From Pyrinomonadaceae bacterium (GTDB lineage: Bacteria; Acidobacteriota; Blastocatellia; Pyrinomonadales; Pyrinomonadaceae), in NCBI GenBank assembly GCA_023717605.1, contig JAMQPH010000456.1:1-40228 (forward strand): a DNA stretch of 40,228 nucleotides. Direction: 5' to 3'. The stretch's first letter is position 1, and each line of letters starts with the position of its first letter. Under the pieces are notes generated by a model. That model did not search any database. It had not been told where the DNA came from and saw only the letters and a list, made by a program, of their open reading frames with translations. The position numbers and the translations under genes were made by a program. Positions 25,427-30,749 of the stretch are shown piece after piece.

Positions 25427-26803
25427 ATGTCCACTCCGAGAAGAAAACTCTTTGGTACTGATGGTGTGCGCGGTGAGGCGGGCCGTTTTCCCATGGATGC
25501 CGAGACGCTCAGAACCGTGGGGACGTCGCTAACCACTCATCTTCGGGAACGCCTCGGCCGCGCTCCTGTAATAATAGTCGGTCGAGATACCCGGGAATCG
25601 GGTGGATGGTTAGAACAATCTTTGATCGAGGGTGCACTTGAAGCAGGCGCTGAGTGCCAGTCCGCCGGAGTAATCACCACCCCCGGCGTTGCTTTCCTTG
25701 CGCGCACACTCCCGGCGGATGCGGGCGTCGTTATCAGTGCGTCTCACAATGGCTATCAAGACAACGGCTTCAAAATATTTGCCCCTTCGGGGCGAAAGTT
25801 GGACGACGAAACCGAGTGTCTCATAGAAGCCGACATCCTGGTGGGAACTGAGGAGAAATCGCCCTCACCTAACACCGGGGTCCACTTACCAGACGAAGAC
25901 TTGGCGGCTGCCTTGCGATCTCGCTATCTGGATTTCCTTCAGCACGAAATCGCTCAGGGACTAACCCTGAATGATCAGACCATTGTGGCTGACACCGCGA
26001 ACGGCGCTGCCTCATCACTTGGTCCGCCTCTATTCAGGCGGTTGGGAGCGAGCGTAGTAGCAATCAATGACAAACCCGACGGTCGCAATATTAATCGTGA
26101 CTGCGGCTCGCTCCACATAGAAGCGCTCCAGGAGAAGGTTATCGCCACGGGCGCTGATATGGGTGTTGCGTTTGACGGCGACGCAGACCGCTCCCTTTTT
26201 GTCGACGCCAAAGGCCGATTTGTTGATGGTGATGCCACCCTGTGGGTGCTCGGTAAATACATGCATGACCGAGGTGAGTTGAGTAATGGCCTGGTGGTCG
26301 CCACAGTAATGAGCAACATTGGTTTGGAAATCGCTTTGCGTTCCAGGGGATTGCGATTATTTCGCACCGATGTGGGCGATAAGTATGTGCTGGAGGAACT
26401 GACGCGCTCGGGAGCAGGCCTTGGTGGCGAACAGTCCGGTCACATCATTTTCCCGCGCTTGAGTCTAGCTGGAGACGGTTTAATTACAACGCTTTGCCTG
26501 CTTCGGGCGATGCGCGACGAGCGTAAGCCGCTGCATGAATTGACCGAAGGATTCAAACGCTATCCGCAGGTGCTGGTGAATGTAGAGGTCAGGGAAAAGC
26601 GGCCCTTCGTGGAGGTGGAACAGATCCAGAAACTGGTGCGGGAGACTGAGTCCCAACTCGGCGACGCCGGCCGGCTGCTATTGCGATACTCCGGCACCGA
26701 GCCTCTGGCCCGCGTAATGATTGAAGGTCACGACCAGGCGATGATAGAAGCGCATGCAAGAAATCTTGCAATGGTGATTAAGCGGACCCTTGGTGCAAAG
26801 TAG
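25427..26803 (+). CDS. glmM: Phosphoglucosamine mutase
   Basis: Isomerises glucosamine-6-phosphate to glucosamine-1-phosphate, the route to UDP-GlcNAc for peptidoglycan and LPS. All GlmM signatures are present: FGTDGVRGEA at the N-terminus, the phosphoserine S106 in SASHNG, the metal loop D250-G-D252-A-D254-R, GGEQSGHIIF (about 340) for sugar binding, and RYSGTEPLARVMIEG near the C-terminus for phosphate. Length of 458 is typical. The ATG sits 20 bases after cdaR. In other phyla GlmM activity is reported to be inhibited by the CdaA complex, so shared transcription fits a regulatory unit. Confidence 0.95.
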   Translation: MSTPRRKLFGTDGVRGEAGRFPMDAETLRTVGTSLTTHLRERLGRAPVIIVGRDTRESGGWLEQSLIEGALEAGAECQSAGVITTPGVAFLARTLPADAGVVISASHNGYQDNGFKIFAPSGRKLDDETECLIEADILVGTEEKSPSPNTGVHLPDEDLAAALRSRYLDFLQHEIAQGLTLNDQTIVADTANGAASSLGPPLFRRLGASVVAINDKPDGRNINRDCGSLHIEALQEKVIATGADMGVAFDGDADRSLFVDAKGRFVDGDATLWVLGKYMHDRGELSNGLVVATVMSNIGLEIALRSRGLRLFRTDVGDKYVLEELTRSGAGLGGEQSGHIIFPRLSLAGDGLITTLCLLRAMRDERKPLHELTEGFKRYPQVLVNVEVREKRPFVEVEQIQKLVRETESQLGDAGRLLLRYSGTEPLARVMIEGHDQAMIEAHARNLAMVIKRTLGAK

Positions 26804-26950
26804 CGTCAGTCATGCAAGTCCTACACAGCAACCACTGAAAAATTTTCATCCTTTTTGGACGTGGAATTCGCTTGGGATTGATAGCTAATAAAGTGCATCG
26901 ACCAATTCCAAATAAAAACTAAAGAACCAGCAGTTTTCGAAAATGATCTA

Positions 26951-26980
26951 TTGCACGGCACAAGCGTTGCGATGTATATT
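26951..26980 (+). promoter_or_regulatory. Promoter of the candidate small RNA
   Basis: TTGCAC at 26951-26956 and TATATT at 26975-26980 are separated by 18 bases, close to the sigma-70 consensus. Predicted start about 26986. Confidence 0.6.
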
Positions 26981-26985
26981 GTGGG

Positions 26986-27101
26986 GCAAGAGAGACGGTT
27001 GGTGAATCCTCCGTCTCAAGTGGTTGCTGGGGTGAGGACAGTGACCACGAATATGGATGGGCGCGACGCACTCCCACGTATGTCGCGCCCATTCGCTTTT
27101 T
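26986..27101 (+). ncRNA. Candidate stand-alone small RNA, about 115 nt
   Basis: Three hairpins follow the promoter. Stem 1 pairs 26992-26998 with 27011-27017. Stem 2 pairs 27020-27029 with 27039-27048, closing a nine-base loop GGGTGAGGA. Stem 3 is a 12-pair terminator pairing 27056-27067 with 27082-27093, followed by TCGCTTTTT. The compact layout, strong terminator and absence of a sensible reading frame fit a small RNA between glmM and aroB. I do not recognise it as a known riboswitch; the motifs of c-di-GMP, SAM, ZTP and fluoride riboswitches are absent as far as I can tell. A 5' leader ending before aroB is possible, but the terminator would stop transcription some 200 bases short. Confidence 0.55.
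27056..27101 (+). terminator. Intrinsic terminator of the candidate small RNA
   Basis: A 12-pair GC-rich stem (27056-27067 with 27082-27093, one G-U pair) with a 14-base loop is followed by a run of five Ts at 27097-27101. It is the strongest terminator-like structure in the window. Confidence 0.75.
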
Positions 27102-27157: not shown

Positions 27158-27285
27158 GATTGCCGATTTCCAATTGCCGATTGCCGGTTTCCCGCTTTCA
27201 TGTCACTTAGGATGATACGGGAAATCAGAATTAACACGCGGGGACCCATTGAAATCTGCAATCGGCAATTGGAAATCGGAAATGT
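27158..27285. repeat. Inverted heptamer array upstream of aroB
   Basis: Six words at exact seven-base spacing (27158-27199, for example GATTGCC, GATTTCC) face five complementary ones (27251-27285, for example GCAATCG). Within them 27164-27184 is a perfect 21-base reverse complement of 27258-27278, with a 73-base spacer. This is the clearest member of the heptamer group. The aroB ribosome site starts directly after. Confidence 0.8.
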
Positions 27286-27303: not shown

Positions 27304-28446
27304 TTGCAGCGACTTAGTGTGCGGTTGGCCGCGGCAAAGCACCGATACGAAATCAAAATCGGGCGTAGAACTCTGCCGGAGATAGGCGACGAGATTCATG
27401 ACTGTTTGCCTCATCGAGCACGCCGGGTTGCCGTCATCTCAAACCTGAAAGTTTTGAGATTCTACGGGACGCAAGTGTTCAAGAGCTTACGCGCCTCCCA
27501 GTATGCTGTTTGGCCCTGGTTGATAGGCGACGGAGAGCGTTACAAGACACTGGCCACTGTCCAGAAGGTGCTTCTTTTTCTAAGCGAGGCCGGTCTTGAA
27601 CGAACCGATGCGGTTGTGGCGTTGGGTGGGGGAGTGATTGGCGATGTTGTGGGCTTTGCCGCGGCAACTTATCTGCGAGGAGTCCCGTTCCTTCAAGTGC
27701 CTACGACGCTCATAGCCCAGATTGATTCCTCAGTGGGCGGCAAGACCGGGGTTAATCTGCCACATGGCAAAAATCTGGTGGGCGCATTTCATCAACCTTG
27801 CGGAGTCCTGATTGACACTGAAACGTTAACAACTCTTTCGCGGCGCGAGCTTGTTTCCGGATGGTGCGAGAGTATCAAGCAGGGCGCTGTGGGAAGCAAA
27901 AGTCTTTTCAAACAGACCCGGGACTTTCTTGAGATGATTAACGCAAATCCCGATACGTTTATTTCGCCGGCACTTGAGAACCTCATCCGTTCCCAGTGCG
28001 CTTTCAAGGCCGCGATCGTCACCGGCGATGAACGCGAGGCACCTGAACGCACGGATCATCTTTCGCGGCGAGTCTTAAACTTTGGACACACAGTCGGACA
28101 CGCACTGGAGAGCATTACCAAATATCGGCGCTTTCGTCACGGAGAAGCTGTGGGTTACGGCATGCTTGTCGCCGGACACATTTCAAAGGATCTGGGCTTG
28201 CTTGCCGCATCCGAGTTAGAATTGTTACGAGACACGGTCCGGTTGGCAGGATCATTGCCCGCAGCCAGCGACCTGGATGAAGGTGCGATCATGCAGGCGA
28301 TTTTGCGCGATAAAAAAAGCGTGGATGGCCGGATCAAGTGGGTACTGCTCGAACGTATAGGACGCGCTCGTATAGTTGATGGAAAAGAGATCACGTCGCG
28401 ACTCGTACGCAGTTCGATAAGAGATGGCCTCAAGAAGAGTTTATGA
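27304..28446 (+). CDS. aroB: 3-dehydroquinate synthase
   Basis: Second step of the shikimate pathway, turning DAHP into 3-dehydroquinate with NAD and a metal. Full length at 380 residues. Motifs are IGDGERYKT, the NAD glycine-rich GGGVIGDVVGFAAATYLRG (about residues 103-121), SSVGGKTGVN, and the zinc ligands in FGH262TVGH266, followed by HGEAVGYGM. The start is a TTG with TTGAGGAG at nine-base spacing, so that start is well supported. It is preceded by the heptamer array and followed by a small membrane-protein gene 18 bases downstream. Confidence 0.95.
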   Translation: MQRLSVRLAAAKHRYEIKIGRRTLPEIGDEIHDCLPHRARRVAVISNLKVLRFYGTQVFKSLRASQYAVWPWLIGDGERYKTLATVQKVLLFLSEAGLERTDAVVALGGGVIGDVVGFAAATYLRGVPFLQVPTTLIAQIDSSVGGKTGVNLPHGKNLVGAFHQPCGVLIDTETLTTLSRRELVSGWCESIKQGAVGSKSLFKQTRDFLEMINANPDTFISPALENLIRSQCAFKAAIVTGDEREAPERTDHLSRRVLNFGHTVGHALESITKYRRFRHGEAVGYGMLVAGHISKDLGLLAASELELLRDTVRLAGSLPAASDLDEGAIMQAILRDKKSVDGRIKWVLLERIGRARIVDGKEITSRLVRSSIRDGLKKSL

Positions 28447-28910: not shown

Positions 28911-30641
28911 CTACCGTTGGGCGCCGTCGAGAAACGCTTTGAGTTTGCGCGAACGCGAAGGATGTCGCAGCTTGCGCAGTGCCTTGGCTTCGATCTGGCG
29001 AATACGCTCGCGAGTGACCGCGAAATGTTGGCCAACTTCCTCTAACGTGTGTTCAGATCCGCTGGTGCCCAGGCCGAAGCGCATTTTGATGACTTTTTCT
29101 TCACGCGGCGTTAAGGTCGCCAGCACTTCATCGGTAATCTCGCGAAGGTTCGAAGCCACTACCGCATCGGCCGGATTCAATATCGACTTATCTTCGATGA
29201 AGTCACCCAAGTGCGAGTCTTCCTCCTCACCAATGGGGGTTTCGAGGGAGATTGGTTCCTGCGCAATCTTCAACACCTTTCGAACCTTCGAAACCGGGAT
29301 GTCCATCTTCTTGGCGATCTCTTCACTGGTGGGTTCGCGTCCCAACTCCTGCACGAGCGCGCGCGAGGTGCGAATCAGTTTGTTGATGGTCTCGATCATG
29401 TGCACGGGAATACGAATCGTCCGTGCCTGATCCGCGATGGCGCGGGTGATAGCCTGGCGGATCCACCAGGTGGCATAAGTAGAAAACTTGTAGCCTCGCC
29501 GCCACTCAAACTTGTCCACCGCCTTCATCAGACCGATGTTGCCTTCCTGAATCAGATCCAGAAACTGCAGGCCCCGATTGGTGTACTTCTTGGCGATTGA
29601 GACGACAAGCCGGAGGTTGGCTTCGACTAATTCACGTTTAGCCTGGCCAGTCTGTTGCTCGCCGATGACGATTGACTGCAGCGAGCGCTTGATTTCAACC
29701 GGTCCGACGTGGTGATCGGCCTCGATTTACACCAGGCGCTTTTTGGCCGCCGAAATCCGGCGCTTAAACTCTTTCTGATCGTCCGGCTTAATCCGTTTCT
29801 TGGTGAGCTTTTCGGTGTGGCTGGTTATTTCGCGCTCTGAGTCGCGAACTTCCTTCTGCACGGCGCGGATGGCATTGATCAACCGCTGCCGGGCGCGCTC
29901 GGTCATACTCAACCGTCCTATTTCCTGGGCAATCTCTAATCGAAGGCGCGCCACTTTGCGGCGGAGGCGCATCAACTTCTTGGTCTTCTTCCCACGGGTG
30001 AGCTTTTGCTCAGCCCGGAGTTTTTCCCATTCTTTCAAACCCACCTTGTAAAGCTTGCGGATATTCTGAATGCCTTCGATGGTCCAATTGCGATACTCCT
30101 CCGCTTTGTCTTCATCTCCGGTCAGCTCAGCCTGCTCTGAAAAAAGCACGATCTCGCGAATGTTTGCAGTGCCGGCTTCCAGGGCTTCGCCGATTCTGAG
30201 TAGCTCCTTGACGGCAAGCGGTGAACGCGCGATGGATTTCTGTGTTTTTAGTTGGCCTCGCTCGATGCGTTTGGCAATAGCCACCTCGCCCTCACGAGTC
30301 AGTAGTGGAACCACACCCATCTCCCGCAGATACAAACGAACCGGGTCGTTTGTTTTCTCGAGCGCGCCCGCGGAGAGATCCAGCTCGATATCATCGTCGA
30401 GTGGTTCCTCATCGTCGTCGGGCACCACAACTGCGGCTTGCTCGAGTAGTCGTTCGTCGGAATCCGCGACGGGAATATTGGAACCCTCGAGCTTCTGGAG
30501 CACATCCTCGATATCATCCGGTGAGACAACATTGTCAGGCAGCTCGCGATTCAAATCGTCGAAAGTCAAATACTTCTTGTCGCCACCCAGCTCGAGCAGT
30601 CTCTCCATCACATCATCTCGATCTTTGTCGTCAATACTCAC
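28911..30641 (-). CDS. rpoD: Primary sigma factor RpoD (sigma-70), interrupted by an in-frame TAA
   Basis: Directs RNA polymerase to housekeeping promoters. The frame runs from GTG 30641 to 28911 over 577 codons, but codon 305 (29727-29729) is TAA. Before it lie region 1.1 (about residues 1-80), an acidic stretch, region 1.2 ([23 protein letters not shown], about 97-119) and a long charged non-conserved region. After it, with no frame change, come regions 2.1-2.4 ([44 protein letters not shown]), region 3 and region 4 with the helix-turn-helix ([20 protein letters not shown]). The first ATG after the stop (29528) would lose part of region 2, which contacts core polymerase. A single base change from CAA or AAA would explain it. 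It follows dnaG by 108 bases, the classic order. Identity certain; the stop may be an error. Confidence 0.9.
29727..29729 (-). other. In-frame TAA within rpoD
   Basis: The codon lies between LV and IEA at the boundary of the non-conserved region and sigma region 2. Codon phase is identical before and after it (30641 minus 29528 is divisible by three), so the break is a substitution, not an indel. Confidence 0.95.
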
Positions 30642-30749
30642 TTCTTATCCGCTCCATTAGGCTCTAGGCCCGCATTCGCAGGTTTCGAAACGCCGATGCC
30701 ACTTAGAGAACGTTTGTCTAAACGTAAATTGCAACCAAATCCGGAAATC

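Follow-up and report, generated by a model that had tools for sequence, protein, structure and literature searches.

A predicted small RNA between glmM and aroB, with a sigma-54-type promoter, belongs to a multi-copy family in the Blastocatellia

Several described systems of bacterial small RNAs (sRNAs) come close to the locus discussed here. The Qrr sRNAs of Vibrio are present as multiple homologues per genome and depend on sigma-54. The alpha-r/cuckoo sRNAs and the UCCC-motif sRNAs of S. aureus are C-rich-loop sRNAs. GlmY, an enterobacterial sRNA, has overlapping sigma-54 and sigma-70 promoters and the activator QseF. For the Blastocatellia, which are abundant soil bacteria, we found no described regulatory sRNA in the part of the literature covered by our search, and a full-text search of similarly partial coverage returned no paper describing an RNA between glmM and aroB. 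A preliminary description of the window (the whole stretch of DNA analysed here, 40,228 nucleotides) had proposed a candidate small RNA in this gap. Homologues, covariation, synteny and a conserved promoter strongly support this proposal, and the gap is predicted to encode a real, previously undescribed sRNA. The features are as follows.

25427 to 26803, plus strand: glmM (phosphoglucosamine mutase), upstream neighbour retained across genera (synteny; NCBIfam)
26813 to 26825, no strand assigned: putative upstream activating sequence, an imperfect TGTAAGNCTTACA palindrome, TGCAAGTCCTACA
26951 to 26980, plus strand: sigma-70-like boxes overlapping the sigma-54 element (TTGCAC 26951-26956, TATATT 26975-26980), a possible second promoter
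26957 to 26970, plus strand: putative sigma-54 promoter GGCAC-N5-TTGC, with the -24 GG at 26957-26958 and the -12 GC at 26969-26970
26982 to 27101, plus strand: predicted small RNA, 5' end placed from the -12 element; match to covariance model R1 at 26985-27100, E 6e-27 (the window sequence is itself included in R1)
26992 to 27017, plus strand: hairpin 1, apical GGUGAAUCC, stem 26992-26998/27011-27017
27020 to 27048, plus strand: core hairpin, loop GGGUGAGGA (27030-27038), stem 27020-27029/27039-27048, common to all paralogue types
27055 to 27101, plus strand: terminator hairpin with U run, loop UCCCAC (27072-27077), stem 27055-27068/27081-27094
27304 to 28446, plus strand: aroB (3-dehydroquinate synthase), downstream neighbour (synteny; NCBIfam)

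The three-hairpin stretch has a minimum free energy of -66.9, against -50.1 +/- 3.8 for shuffles (z -4.38), and the three stable hairpins described earlier could each be located to a stem. The 12-base loop of stem 1 (26999-27010) and the purine loop GGGTGAGGA (27030-27038) exist as described. A run of TTTTT (27097-27101) comes after the third hairpin, in agreement with the strong terminator that had been called there; a terminator scan overlooks it, probably owing to the few bases between the stem and the T run. Relatives carry indels of one base in the segment that joins stems 1 and 2, which exclude a conserved reading frame and so bear out the earlier view that the gap has no credible gene. 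The identities of cdaA, glmM and aroB are above NCBIfam cut-offs and YbbR is identified by Pfam, so the label "c-di-AMP block" given to the preceding genes is right.

Comparison of the same gap in relatives, which the preliminary description had suggested as a check, indicates that the structure of the RNA is under selection. In 50 non-redundant RNAs of the window's design (type A), 92.5% of cells are paired, and both partners have changed in 20 of the 29 pairs. Cells with double changes number 132, against 37 in shuffles, and none of 500 shuffles reaches the real value; structures with slid partners are only 39-51% paired and lose the signal. Stem 1 is retained despite altered letters (GAGACGG/CCGUCUC, GAUGG/CCAUC, GGGCAU/AUGCCU, GAAACAG/CUGUUUC), and it forms a separate stem in every sequence when each is folded alone. 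The MAFFT alignment A1 puts this stem wrongly in part of the rows, and the 81.8% pair count is a lower bound. The core loop hardly varies, and its closing pairs covary in distant families (CUG/CAG, CCG/CGG, ACC/GGU). The base pairs are maintained through compensatory changes, as in structured non-coding RNAs.

The RNA sequence is ∼89-100% identical among genomes of the same genus and down to ∼80% identical in other genera. A 21-base pattern of the core hairpin matched 104 stretches in 84,980 species genomes, and all 80 titles listed are Acidobacteria (Pyrinomonadaceae, Blastocatellia and "Chloracidobacterium" bins). The matches include the isolate Pyrinomonas methylaliphatogenes K22, which has a type A copy. 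In a set of 162 Blastocatellia genomes, this pattern is confined to the window's own family (reversed control, 0), and covariance model R1 finds homologues in 97 of the 162, adding three further families. The same model found no homologue outside the Blastocatellia in 297 genomes sampled from the phylum, and the large genus g9 is mostly without a detectable copy. Rfam, searched as had been proposed, holds no family matching the window at gathering score, and a permissive search up to E 10 gave nothing in the gap that matches the sRNA. Many contigs end inside the RNA (L003, L007, L013, L014, L018 and L021 among them), presumably because of near-identical copies in co-occurring species. The near-identical duplicates suspected at contig ends were rejected as being, at least partly, assembly breaks and strain mixture, since the two copies in G007 each carry a glmM.

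The genomic place is also conserved. Across Pyrinomonadaceae genera, glmM is retained upstream and aroB downstream, with glmM identity down to 54%, and in a second family aroB lies 3' of the RNA in two copies. In many genomes, the RNA and aroB are separated by a gene for an uncharacterised protein of ∼550 residues, which is likewise found after the RNA in two other families. This neighbour, which starts like MLEEYRREY, is directly downstream of the RNA in L229, L077, L108 and others, across three families of the class; Pfam gave no family above cut-off for it. In the window, a 33-base inverted repeat (arms 27159-27191 and 27251-27283, 59 bases apart) lies between the RNA and aroB. It has 86 matches in its own genome, nearly all of them partial copies elsewhere, which identifies it as a dispersed palindromic repeat. 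Weak Rfam matches to microRNAs in the gap derive from this repeat and not from the RNA, and they were discarded. Farther downstream, a sigma-70 (rpoD-like) gene on the minus strand is present as two same-frame parts (28911-29726 and 29727-30644) divided by one stop codon (29727-29729); the interruption may be genuine or an artefact of assembly.

The claim that had to be revised concerns the promoter, which had been described as having near-consensus boxes. TTGCAC matches TTGACA at three of six positions and a sigma-70 scan found no site in the promoter region; the conserved element is instead of the sigma-54 -24/-12 type. We aligned 50 distinct promoters on the common 5' sequence GGGGCAA. All 50 have an invariant GGC-N7-TTGC at fixed spacing, with the 10 bases between the -24 GG and -12 GC dinucleotides that characterize sigma-54 promoters, and the strict pattern GGCAY-N5-TTGC occurs in 48, where shuffles would give 0.01. 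A TATAWT -10 box is found in just 28 of the 50. Outgroup families have a near-perfect sigma-54 element, e.g., TGGCAC-N5-TTGCT, and no TATA box, and in some genera of the window's family the copies at the glmM/aroB locus have TTGCCA-N17-TATATT in place of the sigma-54 element. The sigma-54 promoter appears to be ancestral, a direction of change inferred from these comparisons, and the window species may have promoters of both types. RpoN is encoded in the window's own genome (G000; E 6e-58) and in 55 of 59 genomes. It is apparently the specialised sigma-54 system that turns this RNA on.

A de novo motif search of 41 non-redundant upstream regions recovered a dyad, TGTA-N5-TACA, in 17 of them, where shuffles gave at most 3. 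Enrichment of the TGTAAGNCTTACA palindrome is limited to the regions 5' of sigma-54 copies: an exact match precedes 20 of 50 of these versus 1 of 76 other copies (shuffles, 0.14), and in the sole exception, L221, the sigma-54 element is of a variant form, GGCCT. It lies ∼120-170 bases upstream (about -121 to -169), and its positions recur at steps of ∼11 bp, roughly one helical turn. In the window's genus the palindrome is imperfect, and the window copy at 26813-26825 is symmetrically changed. With a matrix built from relatives it scores 11.6, and none of 200 shuffles is as good. The palindrome is a probable site for a sigma-54 enhancer-binding protein, and it lies where such an activator would be expected to bind.

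The RNA is one member of a family that numbers up to ∼11 paralogues in a genome and comprises four or more architectures, all with one loop, GGGUGAGGA. Type A is the design of the window RNA. Type A2 has a shorter stem 1 and sigma-70-like boxes. In type B the core is followed by a GAGGCUGAAUGCCUC hairpin, and the boxes are of the TTGACA type. Type C consists of a UUCACC-UCCCC-GGUGGAC hairpin, the core, and a terminator with a UGUGGGAG loop. Sigma-54 promoters are restricted to type A, and within it to copies at the glmM/aroB-type locus. Paralogues that share the core loop each come with a promoter and a terminator of their own and stand in unrelated contexts, often between genes on the opposite strand. 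The idea that the purine loop is a pairing or ligand site gains support insofar as conservation within this multi-copy family is highest there.

The type C RNA (L217, L219, L240, L257-L270) is itself highly conserved and has sigma-70-like boxes. Its terminator loop, UGUGGGAG, and that of type A, CUCCCACG, are complementary over 8 pairs, one of them G-U. The exact type C core occurs in 26 genomes, and in all 23 of these with a scored type A loop that loop reads CCCAC or the UUCCAC variant; genomes with a CCCCAAG type A loop contain no exact type C core. This co-occurrence follows clades and is confounded by relatedness, so it is a lead, not proof. In genus g3 (G144 and relatives), one genome has about ten hairpin-like matches around GTGGGGTGAGGACAC, possibly a separate expansion of the core hairpin. 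It is tempting to draw all types together into a class-wide regulon, although as a whole we consider this doubtful. The GGGUGAGGA hairpin would be an exchangeable module built into four or more scaffolds (A, A2, B and C) with their own promoters, sigma-54 and several sigma-70 signals would converge on one partner, and type C would serve as an anti-sRNA by forming a kissing pair with the terminator loop of type A.

We consider it likely (probability roughly 0.7) that the window RNA is a stand-alone, trans-acting sRNA of ∼120 nt under sigma-54 control, whose core loop pairs with, or is bound by, a partner. The selection on RNA structure, the promoter class, the upstream palindrome, the spread of the family and the presence of RpoN and Hfq are evident from the sequences. 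In the mechanism that we infer, with its transcription, activator binding, Hfq use, pairing and targets, an NtrC-type enhancer-binding activator would bind the palindrome ∼120-170 bases upstream and open the sigma-54 polymerase at the -24/-12 promoter. The RNA made from it would form two hairpins with a regulatory role, followed by an intrinsic terminator, and the core loop, presented on its stem, would pair with the partner or be bound by it. Hfq might assist through the 3' U tail: it is encoded in 55 of 59 genomes, and the terminator ends in a U run (27097-27101) as in Hfq-dependent sRNAs, though the presence of Hfq does not show its use. The UCCCAC terminator loop could be a second pairing site, and the paralogues, which combine the core loop with different scaffolds and promoters, would let other signals act on that partner too. 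A search for targets by loop complement and gene-start pairing found no mRNA target. The loop complement TCCTCACCC is not over-represented in the window's own genome (51 versus 55 control matches), the RNA does not pair with glmS starts above shuffled controls, and it shows no strong pairing with the starts of glmM, aroB, cdaA and ybbR, values that carry no shuffled control.

Other explanations account for parts of this evidence. That the RNA lies just 3' of glmM and ends in a terminator might suggest merely the transcription terminator of glmM with chance hairpins, a reading refuted by the conserved promoter, the covarying hairpins 1 and 2, and conservation across the class. A cis-acting leader, with the sigma-54 promoter and an attenuator ahead of aroB or of the uncharacterised intervening gene, would fit the same-strand genes downstream at the glmM/aroB locus and the several families in which the RNA directly precedes the uncharacterised gene. 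We regard it as improbable, because the downstream gene varies among lineages, the paralogues lie in unrelated places or beside opposite-strand genes, and every type A copy retains the terminator stem, with no alternative fold seen. A protein-binding RNA is a possibility to be taken more seriously, if still an unlikely one. The invariant GGGUGAGGA loop would be a recognition site and the many copies would titrate a protein, as a sponge with CsrB-like logic, which would suit a loop that is invariant among otherwise different paralogues, the several copies per genome and the lack of enrichment of the loop complement. Yet each RNA has one core loop, a design from which CsrB-type RNAs differ. CsrA, the known reader of GGA loops, was rejected as the protein: it is absent from the window's own genome and from 38 of the 39 genomes searched, being found in one.

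The preliminary description had also proposed a regulator of wall precursor or aromatic synthesis. The place beside glmM and aroB is indeed retained, but position was the sole basis of that proposal, paralogues lie elsewhere, and the pairing searches gave nothing above shuffles for glmS starts and nothing strong for those of glmM, aroB, cdaA and ybbR. The same applies to a GlmY-like regulator of amino-sugar and cell wall precursor synthesis, a function suggested by position, which we judge highly improbable. The retained glmM neighbourhood speaks for it, as does PMC7073468, cited in its support; against it, Rfam, in which a GlmY or GlmZ RNA would be expected to match a family model, gave no match to the RNA even at permissive E-values, the glmS-start pairing does not exceed shuffles, and position alone can explain the resemblance.

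This family has some wider interest. It offers an sRNA that is open to experiment, has a predicted activator site and is present in a cultured type strain, and it is an unusual case in which one conserved loop is reused across several RNA scaffolds. At a single locus, some genera have a sigma-70-like box that overlaps the sigma-54 promoter, and in others sigma-70-like boxes replace the sigma-54 element.

Each of the described systems resembles this family in part. Like the Vibrio Qrr sRNAs, it has several homologous sRNAs per genome, sigma-54 dependence as predicted from the promoter, and an encoded Hfq; it differs in that sigma-54 promoters are limited to type A copies at the glmM/aroB-type locus, in architecture and loop, and in having no Rfam match. 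With the C-rich-loop sRNAs it shares a conserved C-rich terminator loop, UCCCAC, able to pair with G-rich ribosome-binding sites, whereas the most conserved and common loop here is purine-rich. GlmY is similar in its sigma-54 promoter with an upstream activator site, in the TATA box that overlaps the sigma-54 element in the window's genus, and in a position linking an sRNA to an amino-sugar gene. It is unlike the window RNA in sequence and structure, upstream palindrome and phylum, and the window RNA belongs to a multi-copy family with no glmS pairing found. The likeness to GlmY is one of promoter logic rather than of sequence (PMC3162934, PMC7073468).
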